Shown here piece after piece: positions 3,474 through 48,502 of a stretch of DNA of 64,000 nucleotides. Below the pieces are notes generated by a model. The model searched no databases and was not told the DNA's origin. It worked only from the letters and a program-made list of their open reading frames with translations. Each line of letters starts with the position of its first letter. Position 1 is the stretch's first letter. Origin of the DNA: Aspidapion aeneum (taxonomy: Eukaryota; Arthropoda; Insecta; Coleoptera; Brentidae); contig CAUYVT010000084.1 in NCBI GenBank assembly GCA_963576565.1, forward strand, positions 310,001 to 374,000, in the 5' to 3' direction. Position numbers and translations under genes: made by a program.

Positions 3474-5164
3474 CTAGGCCCATGAAGCGCCCTTTTCGCC
3501 AACCCCCGGGCATCCCCCCAACTGCGTCCTTCCCTCACTAAGGAATCTGCCCATCTTCTGTATAAAGGCCAGAATATCGGGCCACCTCAGATTCAGAAGG
3601 TCCTCCGTCTCAAAGGCCTCCTCCTCGAATACCTCTCTTCTTGCCTCCTTGTATGCTTCACATGATGAGAGAAAATGCGCCGAGGTCTCGTCCTCGACCA
3701 ACATCGTTCGCACGTCGCGTCCTCCTTCACTCTCATCTTTGCCAGGTGTCCTTGTAGGACGCAGTGTCCGGTCAGGACTTCCACTATGGCTCCCACCTCT
3801 CTTCGTGTTCTACGGAGCAGCCAGTCCCTACGGGATTTGCTGTAGCCTGTCACATACTCCTTCGCCTGTCTGGCGTTTCCTGTGTTGGTCCACTCCCTTT
3901 GTATCTCTTTCTGGGTCCACTCTGTTAGGACCGACTTCATTTGCCCTCTTGTGAGCCCCAGGAACGGTTCTGGCCCGACGCATTTCTGCTGGGATCCTCC
4001 CCTGGCGAGTCTGTCCGCTTTCTCGTTTCCGGGGACTCCCACGTGACCTGGGACCCATACGAGCTCTACCTCTCTTACGCCGGCCAATTCCTGAAGTGCA
4101 TCCGCACACTCCTGCACCAAACCTGCGGACATGGTTGGTTTACACAGTGCTTTCAGCGCAGCTTGACTGTCTGAACAGATGCAGAGGCGTTTTCCTGTTT
4201 CGTTCCTAATTTCTTCCTCCCATGTTAACGCCAGTATAGCGTAAACCTCTGCCTAGAAGACTGTTGCATTGGATCCCAGCGGGTAGCTTTTTCCAATGTT
4301 CTTGCTTTCCACGTACACTCCTGCACCGGTCGAATTCCGGTCTGTCAGCCTTGATCCGTCTGTATAGCAGACCGTGGCGTCGCTAAGGAGTTCAACTCCG
4401 TCCTCCTTCCATGCATCCCTTGGTGGTATGGTTACACGGTATCTCCTTTTCTCCCTTAACCGCTTTTCTGGCATCGCTAGCCTGTACGTCGATAAAGGAA
4501 TCTCCTTTTCCGTCACAGTCGCGATCTCCGAATGTCCTTTTTGTCCACCGCTCCTTCTCCACACGCCCGCGTCCCTTATCCTAAGGTATGCTGCCATCGC
4601 TTCCTTCTTTATCCAGGTGGACAGCGATGGGAGACCCAGGATGGTATTCAGGGCTATGTTAGGAGTAGACCTTAGAGCTCCGGTGATGCTCAAGGTCGCC
4701 AGCCTCTGCATGCTTTCGAGCTTTTTGGCGTTAGTGGTTTTCATTGCCCCCGGCCACCAAACCACGGATCCGTATTGGATCCTTGGTCTTATGATGGCCG
4801 TGTAGATCCAGTGCATGATCCTTGGGCTGAGTCCCCACTTTCTTCCTACCACCCTTCTCACTTGCCAGAATGTTTTTATCGTCTTTGTTGTGAGTCGGTC
4901 TATATGTTGTTTCCAGCTTAGTTTACTGTCTAGCACCATCCCCAGGTACTTAACCTCTTGCGATAGTGCAAGTGGTCTTCCGTACATTTGTGGTGCTTTG
5001 AAGCCTACTATTTTCCTCTTCTTTGTAAAGAGAACCATTTCCGTCTTGCTGGGGTTGACGGAGAGGCCGTTCTCTTGGCACCAGTTCTCTATTAGTTTGC
5101 ACGCCCTTTGCATCCTTTCGCAAATGACGCCTAGGAACTTCCCTGGTACTATAACCAGTCCGTC
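3474..5164 (-). pseudogene. 3' half of non-LTR ORF2: RT thumb, RNase H and Cys-His tail (copy 1)
   Basis: C-terminal half of an RNase H-bearing (I/R1-group-like) retrotransposon ORF2. From 5113 it reads the post-YADD part of the RT (LGMVLDSKLSWKQHI), then an RNase H domain: CYTDGS (first Asp), AEVYAI (Glu), ICSDSQAAL (Asp) and WVPGHVGVPGNEKAD (His). A CxxC...H...C-type tail lies at about 3713-3640. Defects: an in-frame amber codon at about 4253 where relatives have Gln (VF-stop-AEVYA), and a frameshift between the RNase H downstream region and the Cys-His tail (3593-3713). The upstream half continues at 8125 after the Transib insertion. Copy 2 retains only the part from 37661 upward. Confidence 0.85.
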
Positions 5165-5165
5165 G
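5161..5165. repeat. Target-site duplication of the Transib, left copy (CGTCG)
   Basis: CGTCG flanks the element here and again at 8125-8129. The unoccupied site in the second retrotransposon copy (37919-37923) has CGTCG once, in identical flanking sequence. This proves a 5-bp duplication. Confidence 0.95.
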
Positions 5166-12135: not shown

Positions 12136-12176
12136 AGTCTGGCAACACTGGTTGAGACAGTGATTCCCAGTCTCCA

Positions 12177-18100: not shown

Positions 18101-21100
18101 TACCACATAAAAGTTTTTTTTCTGCCCGACTAAGATGTGTGGTCGTAATCACGCAATTTATTAACGGCTTCAAACTAAAATATAAATAAAGCACAAAAAG
18201 TCAAATCAAAAGGATAATTAATACAAAATATAAACATACCCTTGGTTTTAGATGTTTTTCTGAATTCTTTTTGAACTATTGCACCAAGTGTGGCTGCCAT
18301 ACCAGATAAAAGTCTTTTGTCTGCTACACTTATGTGTGTCGTTGTAATCACACAGTTTACTAACGGCTTCAAACTAAAATATAAATAAAGCACAAAAAGT
18401 CAAATCAAAAGGATAATTAATACAAAATATAAACATACCCTTGCTTTCTGTAGGCGTTTTTCGGAATTCCTTTTGAAATATGGCACCAAGTGAATGCGCC
18501 ATACCACATAAAAGTTTTTTTTCTGCCCGACTAAGATGTGTGGTCGTAATCACACAATTTATTAACGGCTTCAAACTAAAATATAAATAAAGCACAAAAA
18601 GTCAAATCAAAAGGATAATTAATACAAAATATAAACATACCCTTGGTTTTAGATGTTTTTCTGAATTCTTTTTGAACTATTGCACCAAGTGTGGCTGCCA
18701 TACCAGATAAAAGTCTTTTGTCTGCTACACTTATGTGTGTCGTTGTAATCACACAGTTTACTAACGGCTTCAAACTAAAATATAAATAAAGCACAAAAAG
18801 TCAAATCAAAAGGATAATTAATACAAAATATAAACATACCCTTGCTTTCTGTAGGCGTTTTTCGGAATTCCTTTTGAATTATGGCACCAAGTGAATGCGC
18901 CATACCACATAAAAGTTTTTTTTCTGCCCGACTAAGATGTGTGGTCGTAATCACGCAATTTATTAACGGCTTCAAACTAAAATATAAATAAAGCACAAAA
19001 AGTCAAATCAAAAGGATAATTAATACAAAATATAAACATACCCTTGGTTTTAGATGTTTTTCTGAATTCTTTTTGAACTATTGCACCAAGTGTGGCTGCC
19101 ATACCAGATAAAAGTCTTTTGTCTGCTACACTTATGTGTGTCGTTGTAATCACACAGTTTACTAACGGCTTCAAACTAAAATATAAATAAAGCACAAAAA
19201 GTCAAATCAAAAGGATAATTAATACAAAATATAAACATACCCTTGCTTTCTGTAGGCGTTTTTCGGAATTCCTTTTGAATTATGGCACCAAGTGAATGCG
19301 CCATACCACATAAAAGTTTTTTTTCTGCCCGACTAAGATGTGTGGTCGTAATCACGCAATTTATTAACGGCTTCAAACTAAAATATAAATAAAGCACAAA
19401 AAGTCAAATCAAAAGGATAATTAATACAAAATATAAACATACCCTTGGTTTTAGATGTTTTTCTGAATTCTTTTTGAACTATTGCACCAAGTGTGGCTGC
19501 CATACCAGATAAAAGTCTTTTGTCTGCTACACTTATGTGTGTCGTTGTAATCACACAGTTTACTAACGGCTTCAAACTAAAATATAAATAAAGCACAAAA
19601 AGTCAAATCAAAAGGATAATTAATACAAAATATAAACATACCCTTGCTTTCTGTAGGCGTTTTTCGGAATTCCTTTTGAATTATGGCACCAAGTGAATGC
19701 GCCATACCACATAAAAGTTTTTTTTCTGCCCGACTAAGATGTGTGGTCGTAATCACGCAATTTATTAACGGCTTCAAACTAAAATATAAATAAAGCACAA
19801 AAAGTCAAATCAAAAGGATAATTAATACAAAATATAAACATACCCTTGGTTTTAGATGTTTTTCTGAATTCTTTTTGAACTATTGCACCAAGTGTGGCTG
19901 CCATACCAGATAAAAGTCTTTTGTCTGCTACACTTATGTGTGTCGTTGTAATCACACAGTTTACTAACGGCTTCAAACTAAAATATAAATAAAGCACAAA
20001 AAGTCAAATCAAAAGGATAATTAATACAAAATATAAACATACCCTTGCTTTCTGTAGGCGTTTTTCGGAATTCCTTTTGAAATATGGCACCAAGTGAATG
20101 CGCCATACCACATAAAAGTTTTTTTTCTGCCCGACTAAGATGTGTGGTCGTAATCACACAATTTATTAACGGCTTCAAACTAAAATATAAATAAAGCACA
20201 AAAAGTCAAATCAAAAGGATAATTAATACAAAATATAAACATACCCTTGGTTTTAGATGTTTTTCTGAATTCTTTTTGAACTATTGCACCAAGTGTGGCT
20301 GCCATACCAGATAAAAGTCTTTTGTCTGCTACACTTATGTGTGTCGTTGTAATCACACAGTTTACTAACGGCTTCAAACTAAAATATAAATAAAGCACAA
20401 AAAGTCAAATCAAAAGGATAATTAATACAAAATATAAACATACCCTTGCTTTCTGTAGGCGTTTTTCGGAATTCCTTTTGAATTATGGCACCAAGTGAAT
20501 GCGCCATACCACATAAAAGTTTTTTTTCTGCCCGACTAAGATGTGTGGTCGTAATCACGCAATTTATTAACGGCTTCAAACTAAAATATAAATAAAGCAC
20601 AAAAAGTCAAATCAAAAGGATAATTAATACAAAATATAAACATACCCTTGGTTTTAGATGTTTTTCTGAATTCTTTTTGAACTATTGCACCAAGTGTGGC
20701 TGCCATACCAGATAAAAGTCTTTTGTCTGCTACACTTATGTGTGTCGTTGTAATCACACAGTTTACTAACGGCTTCAAACTAAAATATAAATAAAGCACA
20801 AAAAGTCAAATCAAAAGGATAATTAATACAAAATATAAACATACCCTTGCTTTCTGTAGGCGTTTTTCGGAATTCCTTTTGAATTATGGCACCAAGTGAA
20901 TGCGCCATACCACATAAAAGTTTTTTTTCTGCCCGACTAAGATGTGTGGTCGTAATCACGCAATTTATTAACGGCTTCAAACTAAAATATAAATAAAGCA
21001 CAAAAAGTCAAATCAAAAGGATAATTAATACAAAATATAAACATACCCTTGGTTTTAGATGTTTTTCTGAATTCTTTTTGAACTATTGCACCAAGTGTGG

Positions 21101-21812
21101 CTGCCATACCAGATAAAAGTCTTTTGTCTGCTACACTTATGTGTGTCGTTGTAATCACACAGTTTACTAACGGCTTCAAACTAAAATATAAATAAAGCAC
21201 AAAAAGTCAAATCAAAAGGATAATTAATACAAAATATAAACATACCCTTGCTTTCTGTAGGCGTTTTTCGGAATTCCTTTTGAAATATGGCACCAAGTGA
21301 ATGCGCCATACCACATAAAAGTTTTTTTTCTGCCCGACTAAGATGTGTGGTCGTAATCACACAATTTATTAACGGCTTCAAACTAAAATATAAATAAAGC
21401 ACAAAAAGTCAAATCAAAAGGATAATTAATACAAAATATAAACATACCCTTGCTTTCTGTAGGCGTTTTTCGGAATTCCTTTTGAAATATGGCACCAAGT
21501 GAATGCGCCATACCACATAAAAGTTTTTTTTCTGCTCGACTAAGATGTGTGGTCGTAATCACACAATTTATTAACGGCTTCAAACTAAAATATAAATAAA
21601 GCACAAAAAGTCAAATCAAAAGGATAATTAATACAAAATATAAACATACCCTTGCTTTCTGTAGGCGTTTTTCGGAATTCCTTTTGAAATATGGCACCAA
21701 GTGAATGCGCCATACCACATAAAAGTTTTTTTTCTGCCCGACTAATATGTGTGGTCGTAATCACACAATTTATTAACGGCTTCAAACTAAAATATAAATA
21801 AAGCACAAAAAG
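12177..21812 (-). repeat. Tandem array of 48 exon-like units, two types in higher-order order
   Basis: 48 head-to-tail units fill 9.6 kb: 29 of type A (202 bp) and 19 of type B (199 bp). On the minus strand each unit has a polypyrimidine-rich acceptor ending TTTATATTTTAG, an open segment of 137 nt (A) or 134 nt (B), a donor AAGG-GTATGT and a 65-nt intron-like spacer. The A segment reads KPLINCVITTTHLSRAEKKL then LGAIFQKEFRK; B reads KPLVNCVITTTHISVADKRL then LGAIVQKEFRK. The hydrophobic pattern is weakly reminiscent of the first half of a BRCT domain, a guess only. Segment lengths are 2 modulo 3, so joining neighbours shifts the frame. Three A units (about 12380, 13184, 16998) have 7 rather than 8 bases in a homopolymer and are frameshifted. 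The arrangement is mostly AB dimers, with an A'AAB tetramer repeated at the left. Confidence 0.9.
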
Positions 21813-21883
21813 TTTGTTATTAGGGGTTTGTTATTAGGGACCTTTTCCAGGCACTCCATTAGTTAACGTTATCCTTTAGGGAA

Positions 21884-22405: not shown

Positions 22406-24794
22406 GGGGAAGGGCGGATAATTGTGCCCCCCTAAAGTTTTTTAATCATATTTTTCTTAATATTAATAGAAAATGTACAAAAAAAAAATAATAAAACACC
22501 TGAATGTGTTACGAACAAAATACATTTATAAACTTTTTAGAAATACAAAAAAACACAAAAATATTTAGCATTTTAAAAACTACCAAATGGCCACAATTAC
22601 CCCATATACGTGGGGTAATTGTGGCATGGGCTACAATTGCCCGATTTTACATTTGCTCACAGTTGTCACACACAAAAAATTTTCTTTCGGTGTTGGCACA
22701 TGCCTCATGGGCCCACATGGCACAAGATACACAGCGTAGCCAAATCTCCCCATTTTTTCCGAATTCGCCACATACCAAGCATATATCTGCATTTATGTTT
22801 TTATCTATTACATCGTCATCGTTATCCTCGGAAAAAGAACTGGAACTGCTTTTGTTTGCTTGAATTCTGCCAGTTTTCTCTCTTAAAACCATCTTTTTCG
22901 CAGATATTGTTTGTTCTTCTTGCTCCTCACCATCACTATTAAACACCTTTCTTTTGTAACTAGATTTTTTAAGAGCCTTTTTTTGATTTTTTCTAATTTT
23001 CTTTTTGTTTTCTTTATCTTCAAGTACTTTTTTGTAAGGAGTAGAAGTTAGGATTACTGAACTTTGTTTTCTGGATGTGGTTCTTTTTACCGTCTTTTGC
23101 GATGGTCCTGGTAAGCTAAGGATCTCCTCAAATGATACTGATCCTTGTTGTTCAGCAGCTTCGTTTCCAGTATTTTCTAAAATTGCGGAGGGATCAGGAT
23201 TTAAATGTATTGCCGCTGCTACAAAATCTTCATCGGAAAAAACATCAGGGTTGTGAGGATAAATCCCCGTTGTCTGAAACGCCTTTATTCCCTTTTCTGA
23301 TGTTGCTACCCTGACATATGCATTATTAAATAATTCGGCAATCTCAAAAGGAGTTATTTTTTCATGCGGGTGGTTCTTGAGATACTTGCTGCATTCGTTA
23401 TTGTATGCAGTTTTTAGAGGCGAAAAAAAAGTGACATCCAACGGCTGTAATTTGTGCGAGGTGTGTGGTGGTATTGTCACAATTACGATGCCATTTTCCT
23501 TGCAGAAATTGTACACTTCGAGTGTTGAGTGGGTACAATGGTTATCCATAACCAACAAAACTGGGTCTTCCTTTGAAGGTTTGGTATGATTTTTAAAATG
23601 ATGAAGATATTCCAAAAAAAGTTCTTCTGTGATCCAACCCTTATCTGAACATGAATAGATTGCTCCTACTGGTCCATTTTTTTGCAAAAGGGGCGTAATT
23701 CTTTTGCGACAGAAGATGAACATGGGTGGCACATATAAACCTGAAGCACTGAAAGCACAGACAACTGTTATATTTTTGCCTCTTTCCCAACTTGTTGCGA
23801 ATCCCACCTGCTCTAAACCTTTTGGGGCAAAAATTTTGTACTGTTGATATCCCTGTCTCATCCAGGTTGTAGATTCTGTTGGGGCTTGGTTAAGACACTG
23901 CTCAGATTTTCATAAAATAAAGATACTGCTTCCTTGTTAAATGCTGTAATTCTGCTTACACTGGTTGCTTCCGGTTTACGAAGAGAAACTGACGGATTTC
24001 GCTTTAGAAATCCGCGAAGCCATTCATTACCAGCGAGTTTGTTACCTTTGTTGAAGGGATTTGGAATGCCATTTTTCTCGGCGTACTCAAAAGCGCATTT
24101 CTTAATTTCGGTCCTCGTAATGCCATAATATAATTTGGACAAGTTCAGAACGCGACTGGCAAGCTGCTTTTCTGTTTCCGGGTTAAAAACGGTGCTTCTC
24201 CCAAACTTAGGGCCCATATTCGAATTTTGCTTAAGCCGTTTTTGCAGAGTTGCTCGAGGAATGCCGAAAGCTCTCGACACCTCCCTTAGTGCTCTGCCTC
24301 CTCGTATGGCATCTAAAGCGGTTCTTAGATGATCCGCAGAGTAGCCACCCTTTTCAGTTTTAATAAAAAAACATAGTGGGGTAATTGTGGCCGGCCACAT
24401 TTCTCCCACAAGGTGTGGTCACCATTACGCCAAAAGCACATTTTTACAAAAAAAATTATAAAAAAATATTACAGCAAATTAGTAGAAAAAATGATACATA
24501 AATTAAAATTACATACCTTAAAGATATAAATATCAATCCGCTGTAATTTTGATCACTAAAACTAAAGGCACAGCTCCGCGCTAAAATCGACACGTTTTTA
24601 CATGAAAAGCACATGGCAGAATGATTCACACTTTACTCAGTTCCCAGACTGCCGCGCGCGATAGGATTTCGGGTGAAAGCTTTGGGCGCTTTCCTAAAGA
24701 GGGCGTCATTAGTATGTTGGCAAGATTTTGTCTGGTTTTTTAGAAAGGCGGTGGCCCCCATTACCCCAAGGGCCACAATTACCCGCCCTTCCCC
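22406..24794 (-). mobile_element. Pogo-like DNA transposon, copy 1 (2,389 bp)
   Basis: The terminal inverted repeats begin GGGGAAGGGCGG and are flanked by TA on both sides (22404-22405 and 24795-24796), the target duplication expected of the Tc1/mariner-pogo group. TIR-core copies also lie near the ends (GGGGTAATTGTGGC words), giving a subterminal hairpin. The gene inside is broken. Confidence 0.9.
22647..24409 (-). pseudogene. Pogo-like transposase, copy 1 (disrupted)
   Basis: Same protein as the intact 585-aa copy at 27534-29291. Here a short deletion near 23850-23890 removes sequence around the first catalytic motif (NLDETGIS) and breaks the frame, leaving an N-terminal piece (24409-23858) and a C-terminal piece (23861-22647) with VMDNHCTHST, PPHTSHKLQPLD and the PHD finger. 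The start codon near TIR-proximal MPRTYKRK is also missing, because the upstream sequence has a short deletion relative to copy 2. Confidence 0.85.
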
Positions 24795-27295: not shown

Positions 27296-29755
27296 GGGGA
27301 AGGGCGGGTAATTGTGGCCCCTAAAGTTTTTTAATCATATTTTTCTTAATATTAATAGAAAATGTACAAAAAAAATAATAAAACACCTGAATGTATTACG
27401 AACAAAATACATTTATAAACTTTTTAGAAATACAAAAAAACACAAAAATATTTAGCATTTTAAAAACTACCAAATGGCCACAATTACCCCATATACGTGG
27501 GGTAATTGTGGCATGGGCTACAATTGCCCGATTTTACATTTGCTCACAGTTGTCACACACAAAAAATTTTCTTTCGGTGTTGGCACATGCCTCATGGGCC
27601 CACATGGCACAAGATACACAGCGTAGCCAAATCTCCCCATTTTTCCCGAATTCGCCACATACCAAGCATATATCTGCATTTATGTTTTTATCTATTACAT
27701 CGTCATCGTTATCCTCGGAAAAAGAACTGGAACTGCTTTTGTTTGCTTGAATTCTGCCAGTCTTCTCTCTTAAAACCATCTTTTTCGCAGATATTGTTTG
27801 TTCTTCTTGCTCCTCACCATCACTATTAAACACCTTTCTTTTGTAACTAGATTTTTTAAGAGCCTTTTTTTGATTTTTTCTAATTTTCTTTTTGTTTTCT
27901 TTATCTTCAAGTACTTTTTTGTAAGGAGTAGAAGTTAGGATTACTGAACTTTGTTTTCTGGATGTGGTTCTTTTTACCGTCTTTTGCGATGGTCCTGGTA
28001 AGCTAAGGATCTCCTCAAATGATACTGATCCTTGTTGTTCAGCAGCTTCGTTTTCAGTATTTTCTAAAATTGCGGAGGGATCAGGATTTAAATGTATTGC
28101 CGCTGCTACAAAATCTTCATCGGAAAAAACATCAGGGTTGTGAGGATAAATCCCCGTTGTCTGAAACGCCTTTATTCCCTTTTCTGATGTTGCTACCCTG
28201 ACATATGCATTATTAAATAATTCGGCAATCTCAAAAGGAGTTATTTTTTCATGCGGGTGGTTCTTGAGATACTTGCTGCATTCGTTATTGTATGCAGTTT
28301 TTAGAGGCGAAAAAAAAGTGACATCCAACGGCTGTAATTTGTGCGAGGTGTGTGGTGGTATTGTCACAATTACGATGCCATTTTCCTTGCAGAAATTGTA
28401 CACTTCGAGTGTTGAGTGGGTACAATGGTTATCCATAACCAACAAAACTGGGTCTTCCTTTGAAGGTTTGGTATGATTTTTAAAATGATGAAGATATTCC
28501 AAAAAAAGTTCTTCTGTGATCCAACCCTTATCTGAACATGAATAGATTGCTCCTACTGGTCCATTTTTTTGCAAAAGGGGCGTAATTCTTTTGCAACAGA
28601 AGATGAACATGGGTGGCACATATAAACCTGAAGCACTGAAAGCACAGACAACTGTTATATTTTTGCCTCTTTCCCAACTTGTTGCGAATCCCACCTGCTT
28701 TAAACCTTTTGGGGCAAAAATTTTTCCAGGATTTTGTACTGTTGATATCCCTGTCTCATCCAGGTTGTAGATTCTGTTGGGGCTTAGTTGGTGCTTGGTT
28801 AAGACACTGCTCAGATTTTCATAAAATAAAGATACTGCTTCCTTGTTAAATCCTGTAATTCTGCTTACACTGGTTGCTTCCGGTTTACGAAGAGAAACTG
28901 ACGGATTTCGCTTTAGAAATCCGCGAAGCCATTCATTACCAGCGAGTTTGTTACCTTTGTTGAAGGGATTTGGAATGCCATTTTTCTCGGCGTACTCAAA
29001 AGCGCATTTTTTAATTTCGGTCCTCGTAATGCCATAATATAATTTGGACAAGTTCAGAACGCGACTGGCAAGCTGCTTTTCTGTTTCCGGGTTAAAAACG
29101 GTGCTTCTCCCAAACTTAGGGCCCATATTCGAATTTTGCTTAAGCCGTTTTTGCAGAGTTGCTCGAGGAATGCCGAAAGCTCTCGACACCTCCCTTAGTG
29201 CTCTGCCTCCTCGTATGGCATCTAAAGCGGTTCTTAGATGATCTGCAGAGTAGCCACCCTTTTCAGTTTTCCTTTTGTAGGTCCTTGGCATCTAAAAAAA
29301 AACACATTTTATTTAGGTTTTAATAAAAAAACATAGTGGGGTAATTGTGGCCGGCCACATTTCTCCCACAAGGTGTGGTCACCATTACGCCAAAAGCACG
29401 TTTTTTACAAAAAAAATTATAAAAAAATATTACAGCAAATTAGTAGAAAAAATGATACATAAATTAAAATTACATACCTTAAAGATATAAATATCAATCC
29501 GCTGTAATTTTGATCACTAAAACTAAAGGCACAGCTCCGCGCTAAAATCGACATGTTTTTACATGAAAAGCACATGGCAGAATGAATCACACTTTACTCA
29601 GTTCCCAGACTGCCGCGCGCGATAGGATTTCGGGTGAAAGCTTTGGGCGCTTTCCTAAAGAGGGCGTCATTAGTATGTTGGCAAGATTTTGTCTGGTTTC
29701 TTAGAAAGGCGGTGGCCCCCATTACCCCAAGGACCACAATTACCCGCCCTTCCCC
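27296..29755 (-). mobile_element. Pogo-like DNA transposon, copy 2 (2,460 bp), with intact transposase
   Basis: Terminal repeats GGGGAAGGGCGGGTAATTGT and complement; TA at 27294-27295 and 29756-29757. It encloses one uninterrupted 585-codon gene. This is the only copy here that could still supply transposase. Confidence 0.93.
27534..29291 (-). CDS. Pogo/Tigger-like transposase with C-terminal PHD finger (585 aa)
   Basis: Cuts and moves the pogo-like element. Residues about 10-55 form a psq-type helix-turn-helix (ALREVSRAFGIPRATLQKRL) for binding the ends. A CENP-B-like second HTH region follows to about 150. The DDE_1 core has Asp178 (NLDETG), Asp287 (VMDNHC) and Asp323 (HKLQPLD); the last spacing is 35 residues, a pogo-type DDD. 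After a basic linker (about 430-530) comes a C4HC3 PHD finger with C542, C545, C558, C561, H566, C569, C579 and C582, ending four residues later. The start MPRTYKRK at 29291 follows an AG acceptor-like tract (TTTTTTTTTAG), so a 5'-UTR intron is possible. PHD fingers usually read histone H3 tails; a chromatin-targeting role here is inference. Confidence 0.92.
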   Translation of the reverse strand: MPRTYKRKTEKGGYSADHLRTALDAIRGGRALREVSRAFGIPRATLQKRLKQNSNMGPKFGRSTVFNPETEKQLASRVLNLSKLYYGITRTEIKKCAFEYAEKNGIPNPFNKGNKLAGNEWLRGFLKRNPSVSLRKPEATSVSRITGFNKEAVSLFYENLSSVLTKHQLSPNRIYNLDETGISTVQNPGKIFAPKGLKQVGFATSWERGKNITVVCAFSASGLYVPPMFIFCCKRITPLLQKNGPVGAIYSCSDKGWITEELFLEYLHHFKNHTKPSKEDPVLLVMDNHCTHSTLEVYNFCKENGIVIVTIPPHTSHKLQPLDVTFFSPLKTAYNNECSKYLKNHPHEKITPFEIAELFNNAYVRVATSEKGIKAFQTTGIYPHNPDVFSDEDFVAAAIHLNPDPSAILENTENEAAEQQGSVSFEEILSLPGPSQKTVKRTTSRKQSSVILTSTPYKKVLEDKENKKKIRKNQKKALKKSSYKRKVFNSDGEEQEEQTISAKKMVLREKTGRIQANKSSSSSFSEDNDDDVIDKNINADICLVCGEFGKNGEIWLRCVSCAMWAHEACANTERKFFVCDNCEQM

Positions 29756-31299: not shown

Positions 31300-32619
31300 A
31301 TGTGACATTAAACGACAGTCCAATTTTTGCGTTTTGTAGATACAATTTCATTTGCGTCATTTTGTTATCCTTTTGTGTTCTGTAGGCAAAACTAATACCA
31401 GTGAAAAACTGCCAGGAAAATATAAAATTAGGTCTGTGTACTGGGGTATTTCTATTTTACTGACCAACGAATTTTTGTATTTTTTTCTGTAAGGCCGCCT
31501 TGTTCACATTTCATATTAACATGCTGTTGTTTCTTTTTCCTGTTTACGGCGCGCGGATTTCGCGGCAGTCTGTTTGCGCGCGAAACATAAAATTAGAAAT
31601 AGAAATGAAGTTCTAATTGAAAGAAAAATAATTAATTTATATCAATTTATAAGCAATAACAAACACACGTTAACACGGTTTAACTTTTAATCATCAGCTG
31701 TACCACACATTAGAAAACAGTCAGGAAACACACTTGACTTTTAAGAGACTACAATAAAAAAGTAGACGCATTTAAAATATTTCGCTTGGCAATTCACTCG
31801 TTTGTTTTTGAAAAACAATATTTTTTTAAATTTCTACAAAAAGGTGGTTTGCAAAAATTAACAGACCCTGTTCGTTGGAAATGGGTCATTAGTTTTTGGA
31901 CCGTGCTACGGCTTGGAATATCCCTTCCCTTAAACGCAACAACAAATAAATTTGCAACATCTTCAAAGCTACTTCCCCCGAAATACCATTAAATATCTGT
32001 AGTTTTTTCTAAACGCGTGAAAATCAATTACCCACTTCTCACTTGTTTCGCTGCACACGACGGAACGGCGAAAAACTTCGTAAAGACGAGAGGTCACGAT
32101 GTATTGTCCTACTTTCCCACTACATACGGGTCTAAAACAGCGAAACAGGTATTTCAACGCCCAAATATATGTTACTTCTCTCCTACACACATTAACCACA
32201 GCAACAGTCTATGATACCCATACCATTTAATCTACCTGTATATTTTGATTTCCTATCTAAGGTATGTTTCAAACTGTTTCGAAGTTTACCTAAATTGTCT
32301 TACCTTATGTTAGCTACTTCTTTATCATCAACCATAACTGGTTCAGATGTTGTAGCTCCATCCAAATTAATAATTTTATTTAAGTTCTCTTATTGATTGG
32401 AACTGAACCCAGCCTAAAAATTGTATTAACTAAAATGCAGAGGCATCTCAATTAAGCGTCCATTATATCAACAATTAAGATTTTTTGAGGTTCTTTATGG
32501 TTCAAAAATAAACTAAAAAATAAACATCTCGTTTTCGAGAATTTTTGACAGCATTTTATGTCAAAAGCTCATTATTACAAGCTTTTATTTAGCTTCAGAT
32601 GTTCTGTCTAACCATCTAA
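31300..32619. other. Non-coding tail shared with 46150-48477
   Basis: No supported gene. Short open frames do not agree in substitutions expected of coding sequence. The segment recurs at 46150-48477, where about 1 kb containing an LTR-like sequence is inserted. It contains a GC-rich word (cggcgcgcggatttcgcgg) near 31550. It ends abruptly at catctaa, where the 5-kb element begins. Confidence 0.65.
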
Positions 32620-32808
32620 GGGTAAAATTCATATAAAAGGAGAATTTCGCTTTTAGAAATGAAAAAAAATTAAGTGCTTAATTTAGAGAAAATTTTTTTA
32701 TAATCGGTTTCTACAATGCTTTGACTTTATGGTGTTATACCAGCCAAGCTTAATTTATGACACATTATTTTTTATGTGACTTTTTGTTAAAAAAGTCACG
32801 AAAAAAAG

Positions 32809-33177
32809 TCATTCCGGTAACACTCATTTATTTTAAAATAATTCGTTGTTAACCTGTCAATTATGCTTAAAATGGTTTAAGGTAATCATATTTTAACATT
32901 ACTTATCTAAAAATGTATGAAAGTAGCTACCTCGGTTTAAAAAATTTAGTTTATTCGACATTTAATGGAGCTTTTTGCCTAAATTAATGATTTTTGACGA
33001 CTTTTGTTGATTTATTTTTTTATTTGAGCCTTTTAGCGGCATCCAGTTTACTTTAATTTTTAGTACATACCACTCTATAAAGAATTATTTTGTTTCGTAC
33101 TCTTTATATGTAAAACTACAACAAAAAATAATTTTTTTCTGTTGTTACCGGAATGACTCATTTTGTTACCGGAATGA
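32809..33177. promoter_or_regulatory. Subterminal 13-bp motif cluster, left side (three copies)
   Basis: TCATTCCGGTAAC at 32809-32821, and GTTACCGGAATGA at 33144-33156 and 33165-33177. All are exact. They lie between the left terminal repeat and the end of the gene. Confidence 0.85.
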
Positions 33178-33431
33178 CGATTTCAACTACTGATTTAAAG
33201 AACAATGAATATATTTGTTATAAGGTATCAAACGAAACTTAAATCTAATCTTATCTACTAGTTCTTTGGAAAAACATACCTACATTTTCTAAAAAAAACT
33301 TTTTTTTAAATCAACTAAAATCTAAAACCACTGATTCATACAAAAGAACTATGAATAGGTATTTAATAAAAAAAAATGGACAAAACTTAAAAAAAAACTA
33401 GTAATATTAGTTTTATTTCTAATATTAAAAC

Positions 33432-36400
33432 TTATTTTTTTAATGAGCATGAAGGACAAAGGAAAATTTCACCAAATTTATTGATATTGTGCTTAAGAAT
33501 GCATTTGAGGTGATATGTTCTGATACAGCCTTGGCATTTTCGTCCTTCGTTTTGTACATTTAGATTTCGCGTACACGTGTAGCAAAGACCAAGCGTAACT
33601 TTGATATTCTTCTCAAAAGTTGGGTAAGTTGATTCCTTAACCGAGGTAAAAGGTTGACCTATTTCAATTTGTTAAGGAGAGATACTTTATGTTTAAGAAA
33701 TGAAAATTACCAAAGACAATTAATATAAAAGGATACCAGCAACGCCAACTAGCTTTATTTTGGAAGAGGTAGCTACAGTTTTTGCAACTGAACGAAGCTC
33801 TGAACTGAGATCTACACTATTAGAGGTCCCAGGCATAGATGATTCAAAATCAGGTTCTCTTTCTTTCGCAATATCTGTTACAAAAATTAAGAAAAGTTTC
33901 GGTTTCAAAACAAAGTCAAACGGTACAAATTTGATTAAAAGGATACTTTTATTTTTTACAGTCATTGTGACTACAGAGGGCTTCACACTATAATGAATGC
34001 AAGGTTCCTCAAATTTGCATGTAAAGCAGCTGAGACTCCTCAAAAACAGTTGATTTGCACTTTTTTTGCTCCACGTTACTTGATGTGTCGCCATAATATT
34101 TGGTACTTGAGAAATATTACTTGGTATTTCAAGTTTGGCAGCTCTTATTTCGTCATCCGAAACTTCCCAGATCTTGACAGAACTCTTTCCGAGCTCTCGT
34201 ACAAAATCACCTGCACATACTATGTCATTTCCATGTAAGACAAATTTATCAGCAGTTCTTTTAAGAACTCCTCCGACGCCATCCATTGGTCCCTTGCCAT
34301 GCCCACTTTCACTGAAGTTCCATGACAATGACTCGACATTCTTAAAATATTGAGGAATTTGCTTCATCATCATGAAATAGTTGTTCCTATTTTTGTATTG
34401 TGATGTGGGTCCATCAGACAAGAAATGTATTTTTGTAATGTTTGGAAAACAAATGGCCAGTTCCTTTAAAATGCCATCGAGGTGGGCCCATACTGCATGC
34501 GACTGATGGTCTAAGTTGTCGCTGACAGAACAGAAACATTGAGAATTCACAGGGGAATCATTTTCTACTCTGTAGTAGTAAATGCCAGTATGAAGGGAAA
34601 TCTGCTTTTTGGACGCCCCAAAATGCATCGATTGAATTTCAGATTCGTATTTTGCAACATAATTTTCAGAAAAGTCTATCTGGATTAACAGTTCGTTTGG
34701 CTGTAAAAACTGTTTTAGTCTTTGCATTTCTCTTTGCTGGTGTCGCATAAAAAAAACATGTTTCATATACTGCGTCAACTGGCCTTGCAATAAATTGATG
34801 ATATTTTTTGCAGTATCGTTTTTTTCTATTTTGACTGTTTTGCGAATAGACTTCACCTCGCCCTTGATTTCTTTGTTTTCGGTTTTTGATTCCCACTGCC
34901 TATACAATATTTTTTTTGTCAACTCTTCTCCTTTTGCTCGCAGTGGAATAAATTTTCCCTTACACTCTGGACAATTGCGAAGCATACATTCTATATTCTT
35001 ATCATCGCAAACCACTGCTTTCAGAAGTTCATCCGGTTTTAGAATAGTTGTCACCTTAGCATTATAGAGTGATGTGCACAGCATCTCAATATTTGAATGC
35101 TTTGAGCAAGCGCAAGTGTCTCTATCACTTTGCTTTGGAATGACTACCCAAAACGGTTTGAACCTGCAAAAAGTTGTTTGTGATATTTTATAGGTGTCCT
35201 CATTTGCTAGATATTTCTTGTGTAAATTTGCTAGAGTGTCCAACAGAATGCGTTTTTGTTTTTTAATTTTATTTTTGGTAACAAAGTCTTTCTTTCCGGG
35301 ACACATTTTTGAATTCTCATCCTTTTCAAAGAAATCTTGAACAGACTTTGCTACTTTTTGAATAATCTCATGATTACGTTTTTTTCTATCGTACTGAGAT
35401 TCGTTCGATTTCTGGTGCATTTTATAGGATAATATTTTTTTTGTCTGTCCTACCAGGCGGTACTTTTTTATTATCTTTCCGGAAACAAATTTCTTCAAAA
35501 GATTTTTGTCATTGTGACCCACTGCTTTCTTGGAATTCTGTTCTAACTGGTCTTTTATCACTTCTCCAAAAAGTAAAGATTTTTTAACGGATGGAGGAAC
35601 TTCAATGCCCGCAATCATTTTAGTCACTTTTGTGGCAGGACTGTCAATGTCAGCTATTATATTGTCTGATTTTGTGTTATTTCGACGTTTCTCTCTCTCC
35701 AGTCTTTTTCTACTTTTATTCAATATTTTATTTAATATTTGAATTTTTTCTTGTGCCTTTTTCAATTTTCTATAACAAGAAGCTTTATCTTTTTTAATTC
35801 TTTGACGTCCAACAGACTTCTGCCTTGAAGATATTTTTTTCTTTTTTAATTTATTCATTAAATCGAAATCGTCTTTTTGGTAAACTTCTTGATTCTGTTG
35901 AATGTCCATTGATTCATCTTCACTGGTTGGAGGAGAATTTTCTTTTAAAATTTCCTCTGTTCTAGTTTGCAATTTCAACTTGTCTCTGTATCTTTTGCTG
36001 TTTTTTTTCCATCTTTTTCTTAGTGATTTTTGATCTTTTGGGGTTCGATCTTTAATAGACTTGGCCAATCCTTGTTCTTTCTCTTTTTGGTACCTCTCAC
36101 GATCTTTCCTTCTTTTTTCATTAAGCTGGTCTTCTGTTAATTTTGCTCTATGTTTTTGCACTCTTTTCCTCACTTTTTCCCTATTTATGTTATCCTTGTT
36201 TTTCTTACTTGGTGTAGGTTTTTTAGTTTTTCCTTTAAACTTCTGTGTTTTTTTGATATTTTCATCGACTTCTTGAATCTGATTATTACCATTATTCTGA
36301 GGATATAAAGAATGGATATTTTTTTTTTCAACAGTTTTATCCTTAGGTTTGGGCTCATGGTCAACAAACTTTTTGTCAGACTCGTCACTTGTTGAATGTG

Positions 36401-36659
36401 ATGGTGACGACATAACATATTTTGTGGTTTTCGGCTGTTTTTGGTTTCTAGCAGGTTTTTTTTCAGGTGTTATCTCGCACTCATAAATCTGGTATTGTTT
36501 AGGTTCTTCGCGTGACGTAGAAGGCTGTGATAGCACCGCAGATTTTGCAATTTTCTTTGCTTCCTTTTTTTCTTTTTTCATTTTTATATTTTTCTCGTAG
36601 GCTTCATTTTTTTCGCGTGTCAGTTTTTCTTTAAAATCTTTTAACTTTTTGCTATCCAT
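33432..36659 (-). CDS. Large DDE-like putative transposase with spliced PHD-finger exon
   Basis: Exon 1 (36659-33737) encodes 974 residues plus one base. A 78-nt intron (33736-33659, GTATCC...AAATAG) joins in frame to a terminal exon (33658-33432), giving about 1,049 aa. Residues 1-450 are Lys/Arg-rich and coiled. A Cys/His cluster follows (C516, C518, H521, C528, C558, C563, C566). Then an RNase H-like triad: Asp662 in LLIQIDFSENY, Asp749 in IHFLSDGPTSQYKN and Glu784 in NFSESGHGKGPMDGVGG, spaced 86 and 34 residues. The last exon forms a C4HC3 PHD finger: C1000, C1003, C1016, C1019, H1024, C1027, C1042, C1045. The long open frame suggests recent function. The catalytic assignment is inference; Asp793 is an alternative third acid. 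Confidence 0.75.
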
Positions 36660-36873
36660 TTTACATCTATAAGAAATACAAGAGGGGAGGTTTTACGTGA
36701 ACTGGTACTTTTGCGCTCGCATTTTACGCCAGAGGCAGAGGTGCAAACTCAATCTTTTGTATGAAATAAAACACCACAGAAACCCAATCCCAATTTCACT
36801 GAGTAAAGAAGCTGTTATAAGTTTTAAAAAATGAAGGGAAAAAAGTACCTTAACCTTTGGAGAAAAAAAAGCA

Positions 36874-37480
36874 TCATTCCGGTAACCAAGCATCATTCCG
36901 GTAACGAAAAACGAAATGAGAAATGTTACCGGAATGATGAAATTTTAAATTTTTCAACATGGCAACCTCTAGTATTAAAGTAAGCAAACAAAATTTTGAG
37001 GTTATGTAGTAGGCATGTAACACTATCAGAAAAATGCTCTTTATTTGGGTTTATTGTCATGAAAACCCACAAACATGGTGTTACCGGAATGGCAAATAAT
37101 AAGGGTACGCGCAAAATTTAGCGTATTTATTGTTTTATTTAAAAAAACTCACCAAAATTAGAAAAAAAACACCACCACGATATCACACAACATTCACATG
37201 CGGATACTCTCCATATACTAAGGATCGAATAATTTGCGTCGGTAATACAGATTTCTTGTTTTGAAAGTTAGGTTACCGGAATGATGCAGGACCCTTAGGA
37301 CACCACTTTTGAGCTGATAATAATTACGCTGATGAAAGTAGAAATTTTATTGGGTTGTAAACCACAAATCTGTGAATTGCTCTTTCTAAGACTATTTTTA
37401 TAACGATGATTCGCTGAACGGGTTTGCAATTATCTACGTTGAAAGTTGAAATTTCGAGTTTGTGACAGTTACCGGAATGA
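36874..37480. promoter_or_regulatory. Subterminal 13-bp motif cluster, right side (six copies)
   Basis: Reverse-oriented copies at 36874-36886 and 36893-36905; forward copies at 36925-36937, 37080-37092 (last base differs), 37272-37284 and 37468-37480. The cluster lies upstream of the transposase start, so the sites could serve both end recognition and autoregulation. Confidence 0.85.
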
Positions 37481-37660
37481 CAATTTGATGGTTTAAAATT
37501 AAAAAAAAATATTTCTAATTTCTTAAGAGCCAAACAAAAAAAAATGGATCTCAAAATAACTTTTTACTTTTACGTACTTTTGGATTTACTTGATTATATG
37601 CCATACATTGCCAGCTATGGTCGCGGACATCAAATTCTCCTTTTATATGGATTTTACCCA

Positions 37661-38983
37661 TATGTTGTTTCCAGCTTAGTTTACTGTCTAGCACCATCCC
37701 CAGGTACTTAACCTCTTACGATAGTGCAAGTGGTCTTCCGTACATTTGTGGTGCTTTGAAGCCTACTATTTTCCTCTTCTTTGTAAAGAGAACCATTTCC
37801 GTCTTGCTGGGGTTGACGGAGAGGCCGTTCTCTTGGCACCAGTTCTCTATTAGTTTGCACGCCCTTTGCATCCTTTCGCAAATGACGCCTAGGAACTTCC
37901 CTGGTACTATAACCAGTCCGTCGTCGGCGTACGCTTTGCCGTCAAATCCTTGTTCTTCCAGTTTGTGAAGTAGACTGTCCATTATAAGGCACCAGAGGTG
38001 TGGAGATAGGCAGCTGCCCTGGGGGCAGCCTCCTTTTACCCTCCTTTTGACCTGGACGTCCTTCATACTTGCCTCCACTTCTCTCTCCTGCAAGGCCATC
38101 TCGGTCCATGATATGAGGACCGGGTTGATGCCCTTTTTCTGCATTGCTCGACTTATTGAGCTTGTTCTTGCCTTATCAAAGGCTCCTTCGACGTCAAAGA
38201 AAACTGACAGTGCATATTCCTTGTTTTCGAGAGCTTTTTCTATCCTTTGCACGGTTGTATGGAGGGCTGTATCCGTAGATCTACCCTTCCAGTATGCATG
38301 CTGTTCTGTGTGGAGAGGGGATGCTTTGAGTGGTACCTCTATGAGGCACCTGTCAACCATTTTCTCCAATGCCTTCATCAAAAATGATGCCAAACTTATG
38401 GGCCGGAATGATTTTGCGGTGGTGTAATCTTTCTTCCCTGCTTTGGGTATGAATACTACCCTGGCTTTCCTCCACATTTGTGGGACATAGGTCAAAGCTA
38501 TGCTTGCCTGGAATATCCCTTTCAGGTGGGGTAACAGCGACTCAAGGCCCTTTTGCAGTAGAGCTGGGAAGATTTCGTCCGGCCCCGCTGCCTTAAACGG
38601 AAGGAAGCTTTGGACTGCCCAGGATACCGCTTCGTCGGTTACGATTTCGGCCGCTAGGCTCCAATCTGGGGCGGTTATTAAGTGGTTTTCGTCCTGGGCA
38701 GCCTCTGTGGGGTCCCTCTCGCCTGGGAAATGTGTCGCCAGGAGATGTTCGAGAGACTATTCTGCAGATTTCGTCCATGTTCCTTCCTGTGTCTTAAATA
38801 CGCCTATAGCTTCCTCCTTTTCTTGACTTAGCAGTTTCATCAGTCTGGCGGCGTCTGGAAGGCTTTCCAAGTCTTCGCAGAATTGCCACCACGACTTGCG
38901 TTTGCTTCGCCTCACCTCGTTTTTAAAGTTGTTCTTGGCGGCCTTGTGCGCATCCCAGGCTTCTTCTCTGTCCGCAATTTGGT
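37661..38983 (-). pseudogene. Non-LTR reverse transcriptase (copy 2), truncated at the transposon border
   Basis: Same RT as 8125-9191, here uninterrupted through AYADDGLVIVPG, which shows the pre-Transib state. It is cut off at 37661, so the RNase H domain is absent. It has its own stops: a Gln-to-ochre change just after GRPLALS (about 37718) and an amber at about 38758 (Glu codon in copy 1). Confidence 0.88.
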
Positions 38984-39640
38984 AAGTGTGGTCCGAGAGT
39001 GCAAATGGACCAATACTCGAGGAGTCCGGACTTACGTTGGAGAATATGTTATCCAGGCATGTTTCTGTCTCCTCCGTTATGCGGGTTGGTTCTTCAAATA
39101 GGTGTTTTATATTGTATTCTATCAGTAGATTGGTAAGTTCTTGCTTTTCCCTCTTGTATTTTGTATTGGGTCCAAAGTCTACATTAACATCTCCACAAAT
39201 TATAAAGATGTCTTTTGTATTGTAAATACTGTTCAGGAGACCCTCTAGTAGCTTTAAGTAATTTTTATAGTTTCCTTACACTGAAATTATAAAAATATAA
39301 AAATTTTTCAAATTAAGCCTATGCATGCTTCTAGATCCACCTCTATAGAATTTTTAAAAATAACTTTTTCAAAATTTAAGCTATCTTTCAAATAGATACC
39401 CACACCCCCCCCCCCCCCCTTATTCTATTTGACCTACAAAAGTATGCTGCTAGTTGATAGTTCTCAATATATGTGGAGGTCAGCTCACCTTCTGTTAACC
39501 AATGTTCATCTATACACAGTACATCTATGTCAAATTCTTGTAATATTATATTAATTGTATCACATTTCCCCTCCATCCCTTGTATGTTAAGATGGAGAAT
39601 ATTGAGTGTGTTGAGTGTTGCTTGCTTTTCTGGTATGCAT
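38984..39640 (-). pseudogene. Non-LTR endonuclease domain (copy 2)
   Basis: Same motifs as copy 1 (CIDEHWLTEGEL, ICGDVNVDFG, SDHTYQ). The C run is 15 bases here against 11 in copy 1, leaving both copies frameshifted at the same point. A 4-base deletion near 39320 also distinguishes the copies. Confidence 0.8.
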
Positions 39641-42238: not shown

Positions 42239-44597
42239 GGGGAAGGGCGGGTAATTGTGCCCCCCTAAAGTTTTTTAATCATATTTTTCTTAATATTAAT
42301 AGAAAATGTACAAAAAAAAATAATAAAACACCTGAATGTATTACGAACAAAATACATTTATAAACTTTTTAGAAATACAAAAAAACACAAAAATATTTAG
42401 TATTTTAAAAACTACCAAATGGCCACAATTACCCCATATACGTGGGGTAATTGTGGCATGGGCTACAATTGCCCGATTTTACATTTGCTCACAGTTGTCA
42501 CACACAAAAAATTTTCTTTCGGTGTTGGCACATGCCTCATGGGCCCACATGGCACAAGATACACAGCGTAGCCAAATCTCCCCATTTTTTCCGAATTCGC
42601 CACATACCAAGCATATATCTGCATTTATGTTTTTATCTATTACATCGTCATCGTTATCCTCGGAAAAAGAACTGGAACTGCTTTTGTTTGCTTGAATTCT
42701 GCCAGTCTTCTCTCTTAAAACCATCTTTTTCGCAGATATTGTTTGTTCTTCTTGCTCCTCACCATCACTATTAAACACCTTTCTTTTGTAACTAGATTTT
42801 TTAAGAGCCTTTTTTTGATTTTTTCTAATTTTCTTTTTGTTTTCTTTATCTTCAAGTACTTTTTTGTAAGGAGTAGAAGTTAGGATTACTGAACTTTGTT
42901 TTCTGGATGTGGTTCTTTTTACCGTCTTTTGCGATGGTCCTGGTAAGCTAAGGATCTCCTCAAATGATACTGATCCTTGTTGTTCAGCAGCTTCGTTTCC
43001 AGTATTTTCTAAAATTGCGGAGGGATCAGGATTTAAATGTATTGCCGCTGCTACAAAATCTTCATCGGAAAAAACATCAGGGTTGTGAGGATAAATCCCC
43101 GTTGACTGAAACTCCTTTATTCCCTTTTCTGATGTTGCTACCCTGACATATGCATTATTAAATAATTCGGCAATCTCAAAAGGAGTTATTTTTTCATGCG
43201 GGTGGTTCTTGAGATACTTGCTGCATTCGTTATTGTATGCAGTTTTTAGAGGCGAAAAAAAATTACGATGCCATTTTCCTTGCAGAAATTGTACACTTCG
43301 AGTGTTGAGTGGGTACAATGGTTATCCATAACCAACAAAACTGGGTCTTCCTTTGAAGGTTTGGTATGATTTTTAAAATGATGAAGATATTCCAAAAAAA
43401 GTTCTTCTGTGATCCAACCCTTATCTGAACATGAATAGATTGCTCCTACTGGTCCATTTTTTTGCAAAAGGGGCGTAATTCTTTTGCGACAGAAGATGAA
43501 CATGGGTGGCACATATAAACCTGAAGCACTGAAAGCACAGACAACTGTTATATTTTTGCCTCTTTCCCAACTTGTTGCGAATCCCACCTGCTTTAAACCT
43601 TTTGAGGCAAAAATTTTTCCAGGATTTTGTACTGTTGATATCCCTGTCTCATCCAGGTTGTAGATTCTGTTGGGGCTTAGTTGGTGCTTGGTTAAGACAC
43701 TGCTCAGATTTTCATAAAATAAAGATACTGCTTCCTTGTTAAATGCTGTAATTCTGCTTACACTGGTTGCTTCCGGTTTACGAAGAGAAACTGACGGATT
43801 TCGCTTTAGAAATCCGCGAAGCCATTCATTACCAGCGAGTTTGTTACCTTTGTTGAAGGGATTTGGAATGCCATTTTTCTCGGCGTACTCAAAAGCGCAT
43901 TTCTTAATTTCGGTCCTCGTAATGCCATAATATAATTTGGACAAGTTCAGAACGCGACTGGCAAGCTGCTTTTCTGTTTCCGGGTTAAAAACGGTGCTTC
44001 TCCCAAACTTAGGGCCCATATTCGAATTTTGCTTAAGCCGTTTTTGCAGAGTTGCTCGAGGAATGCCGAAAGCTCTCGACACCTCCCTTAGTGCTCTGCC
44101 TCCTCGTATGGCATCTAAAGCGGTTCTTAGATGATCCGCAGAGTAGCCACCCTTTTCAGTTTTAATAAAAAAACATAGTGGGGTAATTGTGGCCGGCCAC
44201 ATTTCTCCCACAAGGTGTGGTCACCATTACGCCAAAAGCACGTTTTTTACAAAAAAAATTATAAAAAAATATTACAGCAAATTAGTAGAAAAAATGATAC
44301 ATAAATTAAAATTACATACCTTAAAGATATAAATATCAATCCGCTGTAATTTTGATCACTAAAACTAAAGGCACAGCTCCGCGCTAAAATCGACACGTTT
44401 TTACATGAAAAGCACATGGCAGAATGATTCACACTTTACTCAGTTCCCAGACTGCCGCGCGCGATAGGATTTCGGGTGAAAGCTTTGGGCGCTTTCCTAA
44501 AGAGGGCGTCATTAGTATGTTGGCAAGATTTTGTCTGGTTTTTTAGAAAGGCGATGGCCCCCATTACCCCAAGGGCCACAATTACCCGCCCTTCCCC
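42239..44597 (-). mobile_element. Pogo-like DNA transposon, copy 3 (2,359 bp)
   Basis: Ends GGGGAAGGGCGGGTAATTGT and complement, flanked by TA at 42237-42238 and 44598-44599. Internally deleted. Confidence 0.9.
42479..44211 (-). pseudogene. Pogo-like transposase, copy 3 (catalytic deletion)
   Basis: Same transposase as 27534-29291. About 50 bp is missing near 43260, removing the residues PPHTSHKLQPLD including the third catalytic Asp, and the frame changes there. The N-terminal start region is lost as in copy 1. The HTH, first two Asp motifs and PHD finger remain readable in two pieces (44211-43246 and 43318-42479). Confidence 0.88.
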
Positions 44598-47044: not shown

Positions 47045-48502
47045 GTATTAAAGAATTTTGTGGTAGTAGCAGCTAGAAGTAATTATGATTTTACTTTTGC
47101 ACTGAAAAAGAACCCGAGCTGCAAAAACCCACCTCGCCTTATGACAAAAGCGCCTTTGAAGGCTGACTCAAATGTGGAACAAAAATAGCTGGCGATAAAG
47201 AAATATTTTTGACACAGCTTTTCGGACGACCGACGGCTCGAACGAGCAAAATATGTTCGTGACGTGGAATGAATGAAGAGAGTTAGCGCGCTACATTTGG
47301 AAGGAAAGGGTTGGAAATAAATTTATTTATCCATAGGGTCGTCCGTCGAACGAAAATAAATCAAATAAAAATTTGAAAAATTTCACATTTCATATTAACA
47401 TGCTGTTGTTTCTTTTTCCTGTTTACGGCGCGCGGATTTCGCGGCAGTCTGTTTGCGCGCGAAACATAAAATTAGAAATAGAAATGAAGTTCTAATTGAA
47501 AGAAAAATAATTAATTTATAAGCAATAACAAACACACGTTAACACGGTTTAACTTTTAATCATCAGCTGTACCACACATTAGAAAACAGTCAGGAAACAC
47601 ACTTGACTTTTAAGAGACTACAATAAAAAAGTAGACGCATTTAAAATATTTCGCTTGGCAATTCACTCGTTTGTTTTTGAAAAACAATATTTTTTAAAAT
47701 TTCTACAAAAAGGTGGTTTGCAAAAATTAACAGACCCTGTTCGTTGGAAATGGGTCATTAGTTTTTGGACCGTGCTACGGCTTGGAATATCCCTTCCCTT
47801 AAACGCAACAACAAATAAATTTGCAACATCTTCAAAGCTACTTTCCCCGAAATACCATTAAATATCTGTAGTTTTTTCTAAACGCGTGAAAATCAATTAC
47901 CCACTTCTCACTTGTTTCGCTGCACATGACGGAACGGCGAAAAACTTCGTAAAGACGAGAGGTCACGATGTATTGCCCTACTTTCCCACTACATACGGGT
48001 CTAAAACAGCGAAACAGGTATTTCAACGCCCAAATATATGTTACTTCTCTCCTACACACATTAACCACAGCAACAGTCTATGATACCTATACCATTTAAT
48101 CTACCTGTATATTTTGATTTCCTATCTAAGGTATGTTTCAAGCTGTTTCGAAGTTTACCTAAATTGTCTTACCTTATGTTAGCTGCTTCTTTATCATCAA
48201 CCATAACTGGTTCAGATGTTGTAGCTCCATCCAAATTAATAATTTTCTCTTGTTGATTGGAACTGAACCCAGCCTAAAAATTGTATTAACTAAAATGCAG
48301 AGGCATCCCAATTAAGCGTCCATTATATCAACAATTAAGATTTTTTGAGGTTCTTTATGGTTCAAAAATAAACTAAAAAATAAACATCTCGTTTTCGAGA
48401 ATTTTTGACAGCATTTTATGTCAAAAGCTTATTATTACAAGCTTTTATTTAGCTTCAGATGTTCTGTCTAACCATCTAACTATCTATCAAATCTTGTGAA
48501 GC

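Follow-up and report, generated by a model that had tools for sequence, protein, structure and literature searches.

Transposases of the Sola superfamily use a catalytic triad of three aspartates (DDD), and the ends of Sola2 elements read 5'-GRG. A DDD triad is also found in piggyBac, which has a C-terminal cross-brace zinc domain that contacts DNA and inserts at TTAA targets, and in elements such as hAT (Ac), En/Spm and P a short motif is repeated many times within each end, with target-site duplications (TSDs) of lengths other than the one described here. For dictyostelid Sola2 elements, the available portion of PMC3627910 gives TSDs of AWWT or ATAT/AAAT/ATTT, terminal inverted repeats (TIRs) of 12–21 bp and, for D. 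fasciculatum, a transposase of 888 aa; Sola elements are reported in insects and bivalves in the available portions of PMC10294476 and PMC5199201. Against this background, we analysed a 64,000-nt stretch of the beetle Aspidapion aeneum (the window; contig CAUYVT010000084.1, C94:310001-374000), which holds a 5,040-bp element. This element is very probably a cut-and-paste DNA transposon that has moved recently, codes for its own transposase and carries an array of 13-bp sites in a fixed register, and its likeliest home, compared by description only, is probably a Sola2-like branch of the Sola superfamily.

A sequence-only reading of this stretch had proposed a DNA transposon with inverted ends of about 28 bp, and both proposals hold. 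The TIRs pair at 27 of 28 positions, and none of 100 shuffled windows matched the pattern at ≤3 mismatches. In the assembly (1.29 Gb, 149 contigs), the terminal repeat has 16 matches at ≤3 mismatches, which resolve into eight full-length, dispersed elements, whereas the reversed control yields none. The copies are 5,018–5,070 bp long and 99.5–99.98% identical (1–23 substitutions per ~5 kb), and GGG starts all 16 of their ends. The seven beyond the window define the target: perfect 4-bp TSDs flank 7/8 copies (ATAT, ATAT, TTAT, TTAA, ATAC, TTAA and ATAA), all AT-rich with a central TA, so that the TIRs and TSDs of a DDE/D cut-and-paste element are present together in several copies. At one insertion, removing one TSD from the host repeat gives a frame of 256 codons versus 205 with both kept, restoring what we take to be a mariner-type gene; in a second host repeat the corresponding frames are 287 and 187 codons, and the restored one presumably encodes a reverse transcriptase (RT). 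Rejoined flanks at the remaining insertions gave no frame longer than 135 codons.

Three copies, those of the window, C7 and C9, keep the main frame open (979–982 codons), and in the other five it is disrupted. The third exon of C7 is disrupted by an 11-base deletion, and a tyrosine replaces one cysteine of the C-terminal finger in C3a; among the eight copies, only those of the window and C9 combine an open frame with an intact finger. An open frame is by itself no proof of activity, and the activity of these two copies is putative. Two copies on C1 (C1:55175216-55180233 and C1:55300502-55305519) lie 125 kb apart and differ at 1 of 5,018 bases; their flanks differ, each has a separate ATAT duplication, and the pair is perhaps the product of a local hop. 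Separately, an older relative fragment (L016, C9:45766000-45770000) matches the non-coding DNA on the element's promoter side at 74–88%.

When the genome was searched with the transposase core, the 88 matches listed comprised the eight copies at 99–100% identity and 80 others at 29–71%. We scanned 22 relative loci, each extended by ~1.5 kb on either side, for inverted ends next to a 4-bp NTAN duplication. GGG-starting ends were found in four loci (L043, ATAT; L048, ATAT; L049, ATAA; L061, TTAT), compared with 0/660 shuffled sequences and 8/462 mispaired halves. Hits with any start occurred in 5/22 loci, 19/660 shuffled sequences and 86/462 mispaired halves; in this first scan, only the GGG-starting hits stand out from the controls. 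Some matches among mispaired halves are expected because L043 and L061 belong to one family (91–97%). With longer flanks for three of the 22 loci, and with GGG now required as it had not been in the first scan, ends were located in L063 and L065 (both TTAT), which belong to a single family as two copies at 96% identity, and were not found in L064. Ends were thus located in 6/22 loci, most of which were covered by only ~1.5 kb per side. A further hit in L046 (CAGGGG ends, CAGGGGAATTAC start, CTAT on both sides) was set aside for its different start; this inverted pair near a related transposase may represent another type of end or else a nested element. Scans of viral contigs for relatives and for the TIR, and one scan of genome contigs, found none.

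The 5'-GGG ends and AT-rich 4-bp duplications are the reason for placing the family near Sola2. A 4-bp TSD is found in the window family and its relatives, and GGG at all 16 ends and in the six relative loci fits the 5'-GRG rule; the predicted DDD triad is likewise the one associated with Sola. The group is present in insects and bivalves, where Sola has been reported (PMC10294476 and PMC5199201, in part). It is somewhat unlikely that the group instead forms a separate superfamily, so far unnamed. In favour of that alternative, Pfam and NCBIfam searches found no family for the core, and only 2/7 TSDs fit the AWWT given for dictyostelid Sola2 in the available part of PMC3627910, the set here being WTAH; both points weigh against the Sola2-like placement. 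Two known groups were tried and rejected: piggyBac, since the core has no match to Pfam DDE_Tnp_1_7 at E ≤ 1 (HMMER filters drop weak ones) and the target is not TTAA only, and Tc1/mariner/pogo, a group that duplicates TA at its targets, since the TSDs are 4 bp and the core matches neither DDE_1 nor DDE_3. Literature searches on DUF7869, GHGKG transposases, Sola2 in Acyrthosiphon and PHD-fingered insect Tigger elements found none; no search was aimed at subterminal arrays of fixed spacing, for which no priority is claimed.

The unexpected feature of the element is its site array. The sequence-only reading had counted nine 13-mer copies in the non-coding flanks, which is correct if one copy with a single mismatch (37080) is included beside eight exact ones. 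At ≤2 mismatches we find 10 matches versus 1.17 expected (no shuffle of 100 reached 10), the tenth having two mismatches and falling in the coding part. The number of exact sites ranges from 7 to 9 among the eight copies, partly through a 14-bp tandem unit.

In relatives whose cores are about 34–46% identical to that of the window, the motif differs from family to family (TCATTCCGGTAAC, TCATTTCGGCAAC, TCATTAGCGTGGA, TCAACTCCGTGAA, TCTCACTTCC, TCTACTCCATGGA) while its positions recur. Measured from the promoter-side end, sites start at 181, 378, 568, 722, 737, inverted 759 and 780 in L063 (within 1 bp of these in L065); at 182, 380, 572, 728, inverted 784 and 804 in L048; at 175, 375, 573, 730, 745, inverted 766 and 785 in L043; and at 382, 573, 730, 745, inverted 774 and 794 in L049, where the first site was not found at threshold. 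L061 has sites at 181, 374 and 539, and its later ones are missing. Five families, including that of the window, thereby share promoter-side positions at ~180, 377, 570 and 725 and an inverted pair at ~755–804. A sixth, L064, whose outer end was not located, retains the internal spacing (198, 190, 156 and 15, plus two inverted sites separated by 19 bp); after three exact sites had been identified, two more were expected near 1041 and 1238, and a later scan placed them at 1041 and 1239 with 2 and 3 mismatches. The best GGG pair in L064 would displace all of its sites by 16 bp.

The DNA around the sites is much less alike. Among the five relative families, matches at 1e-5 amount to only 98 bp, between L049 and L064, and blastn of the first 900 bp at E ≤ 1 gives only short inter-family matches (the longest 55 bp among the rows listed), including one of 44 bp between the window and L049 at corresponding positions just before the first site. 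Site position is conserved where sequence has largely diverged. A shifted-register control is passed by the window, L063 and L048 and failed by L043, L049 and L061, for which random placement of an equal number of sites gave 5e-5, 5.5e-4 and 0.016, respectively.

These observations suggest how the element may work. Its protein of ~1,025 residues, with a conserved Cys/His region before an RNase H-like core and a C-terminal PHD-type finger added by predicted splicing, would insert the element at NTAN sites with a 4-bp duplication, as seen in 7/8 copies. Each end has a 28-bp inverted repeat (5'-GGG) and family-specific 13-bp sites, fewer on the gene-end side. The 13-mer is probably bound by the transposase, a proposal strengthened by the conserved register, although an element-specific host factor could fill this role; the bound protein may assemble a defined complex that unites both ends and perhaps represses the element's own promoter, located on the array side. 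Because the distances are kept across diverged motifs and inter-site DNA, a bound factor would have to build a defined complex, and the register points to a precisely built protein–DNA machine. The finger may read histone tails or contact DNA. In a speculative extension that we consider doubtful, the end is read by distance and not by sequence, with six or seven fixed sites acting as the ruler of a single large complex and with motif and transposase rewritten together in each family; in its boldest form, the sites lie in the linkers of phased nucleosomes read by the C-terminal PHD or, in other lineages, by another C-terminal module, and only a correctly chromatinised end is cut. The intervals of ~180, ~197, ~192 and ~155 bp each accommodate one nucleosome, and these lengths may be meaningful.

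The same spacing could instead be promoter architecture, with a host factor or a transposase domain binding the array for expression only. The dense side does lie upstream of the gene in every family examined. Nevertheless, sites are also present on the gene-end side, where the window, L063, L065, L048, L043 and L061 all have a pair 20–24 bp apart at variable distance and where one inverted site lies at 189 in the window and 190 in L065, and a motif that varies by family is expected of an element-encoded binder and not of one host factor; we therefore regard a purely transcriptional array as unlikely and prefer a complex built on the ends.

The transposase gene runs on the minus strand, and the frame from ATG 36659 continues for 979 codons before its first stop. 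The sequence-only reading had described one 78-nt intron leading into a PHD-finger exon. That intron (GT..AG) is present and would splice in frame into a C4HC3 Cys/His exon, but the single-intron gene is rejected: a second, in-frame intron of 72 nt likely lies upstream, giving two small introns and a predicted 1,025-residue protein. Both open with GTATCC, and the predicted splice sites are identical across all eight copies. Among the first 30 relatives, compared at the protein level only, 20 have a readable C-terminal motif, and the residues that an intron-1-type donor would encode (xIL[L/F]) stand at the same place in 12 of these; in several of the 12, the frame stops shortly past them.

The third exon holds the C4HC3 ligands of a PHD finger, with spacing taken from the sequence. 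Its best Pfam matches are PHD_NSD (8.9e-5; 23.2 bits, just below the cut-off of 23.9) and PHD (0.0037), its PDB matches are PHD fingers of Lid/KDM5 proteins (0.005–0.1), and its predicted structure has a predicted local distance difference test score (pLDDT) of 50. That the finger lies outside the protein, its exon never spliced in, is quite improbable, even though a finger pattern occurs in only 4/222 listed relatives, where other tails were judged by a loose pattern alone, and a dedicated search with the C-terminal part found nothing. A finger 47% identical to that of the window sits in the transposase frame of P0006, a member of the window's own clade of ten (support 0.991). The motif and this close relative support assigning the spliced PHD-type exon to the transposase. 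P0029, P0167 and P0215 likewise terminate in fingers; identity is 44% between those of P0167 and P0215 and 25–27% between either and that of the window, which hints that a finger was captured more than once. As a separate observation, the transposase relatives P0167 and P0127 have precomputed Pfam domains PF02338 and PF01602.

The RNase H fold proposed for the core is borne out by the structure prediction, which has a pLDDT of 93 and an RNase H-like order of strands and helices, with the acidic triad at the expected fold positions and D793 on the third catalytic helix. VIA-align of this model gives matches to integrases and Mos1, and Foldseek against BFVD and PDB gives no match at E ≤ 0.001. 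The three acids named as the active site by the sequence-only reading are all at the positions it gave, but only Asp662 and Asp749 stand as catalytic and Glu784 does not: in an alignment of the window with the 222 listed relatives, neither D662 nor D793 varies (223/223 each), D749 is present in 222 (1 gap) and E784 in 210. As E784 is absent from 13 sequences and D793 is invariant and on the expected helix, the predicted catalytic triad is DDD (D662-D749-D793). A catalytic Glu784 with a structural D793 is highly improbable, given that, for all the 210/223 that keep E784, the 13 sequences without it retain D662, D749 and D793, the model puts E784 in a loop and D793 on a helix, and C9, a copy whose three exons are all open although this by itself is no proof of activity, has Lys at this position.

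Table 1. Features of the transposon and its flanks, in window coordinates.
Feature	Position	Strand	Remark
Complete transposon, 5,040 bp	32620..37659		both ends recur at 7 further genome places
TIR, 3' (gene-end) side, GGGTAAAATTCATATAAAAGGAGAATTT	32620..32647	+	
TIR, 5' (promoter) side, GGGTAAAATCCATATAAAAGGAGAATTT	37632..37659	-	
Transposase exon 1	33947..36659	-	basic N-terminal region, Cys/His region, RNase H-like core
Predicted intron 1, 72 nt	33875..33946	-	GTATCC...AACAG; in frame; absent from the sequence-only reading
Predicted exon 2	33737..33874	-	linker
Predicted intron 2, 78 nt	33659..33736	-	GTATCC...AAATAG
Exon 3	33432..33658	-	C4HC3 PHD-type finger plus stop
Codon D662, predicted catalytic Asp 1	34674..34676	-	first strand of RNase H-like fold
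Codon D749, predicted catalytic Asp 2	34413..34415	-	directly past fourth strand
Codon D793, proposed third catalytic Asp	34281..34283	-	third residue of helix 447-464 of model
Codon E784, catalytic Glu of sequence-only reading	34308..34310	-	loop past fifth strand
13-bp site	37468..37480	+	180 bp from promoter-side end
13-bp site	37272..37284	+	376 bp from promoter-side end
13-bp site, one mismatch	37080..37092	+	568 bp from promoter-side end
13-bp site	36925..36937	+	723 bp from promoter-side end
13-bp site, inverted	36893..36905	-	755 bp from promoter-side end
13-bp site, inverted	36874..36886	-	774 bp from promoter-side end
13-bp site	33165..33177	+	545 bp from gene-end side
13-bp site	33144..33156	+	524 bp from gene-end side
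13-bp site	32809..32821	-	189 bp from gene-end side
Right flank, non-long-terminal-repeat retrotransposon (RT)	37660..39500	-	cut by element after ...CAACATAT
Left flank, different repeat	31503..32619	+	cut after ...CCATCTAA

The window copy is the one without a TSD: its flanking 4-mers, CTAA on the left and ATAT on the right, are centred on TA like the other targets, and a duplication was rejected as they differ. Its flanks derive from different loci, which accounts for this. The right flank is 99.6% identical over 264 bp to 4902-5165 and the left flank 97.4% identical to 47382-48479, and both paralogues are continuous and lack the element. The copy thus appears to join two separate insertion junctions, whether by ectopic recombination among copies, by aberrant transposition or through an assembly join. 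Variant sites do not discriminate its origins, informative ones being too few for a test of a recombinant within the element. Elsewhere in the window, a Transib-like insert in the RT paralogue of the right flank (5166-8124; ends CACAGTGGTTC / CACAGAGGTTC; 5-bp duplication CGTCG) has frames at 6215-7600 and 5622-6239 that presumably resemble RAG1/Transib and had no Pfam match. A satellite array at 12176-21813 has a ~202-bp unit (48 copies) and a 401-bp two-unit period, and pieces related to this unit recur elsewhere in the window.

The register recasts a loose array of subterminal motifs as a measurable architecture, in which positions are held within a few bases across families and motif and spacer are not. 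Paired data on motif and transposase could be used for learning DNA recognition, and the array allows the idea that transposon ends in eukaryotes are recognised as chromatin to be tested directly. The analysis also supplies a working definition of a widespread animal transposase group (DDD with GHGKxxxD, 5'-GGG ends and a 4-bp NTAN target) for which we found no Pfam model, and, as material for laboratory work, a young family in which two copies have all predicted exons open.

Compared with known systems, the element resembles piggyBac in its predicted DDD triad and C-terminal zinc domain, and two copies have TTAA duplications; it differs in its long subterminal arrays and in targets that are not limited to TTAA (2/7). 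With hAT (Ac), En/Spm and P it shares a repeated short subterminal motif, but here what the families have in common is the positions of the sites and not their motif. Three pogo/Tigger-type copies in the same window (22647-23909, 27534-29291 and 42479-44220; DDE_1 in the one scanned) also end in a PHD-like finger, yet they encode an unrelated DDE transposase of Pfam DDE_1, and their finger is just 22% identical to that of the element. The closest likeness is to Sola2, in the AT-rich 4-bp TSDs and a transposase of ~900–1,000 residues, whereas the TIR of 28 bp is longer than the 12–21 bp, and the WTAH targets differ from the AWWT, of the available part of PMC3627910, whose description includes neither fixed-register arrays nor a PHD finger.

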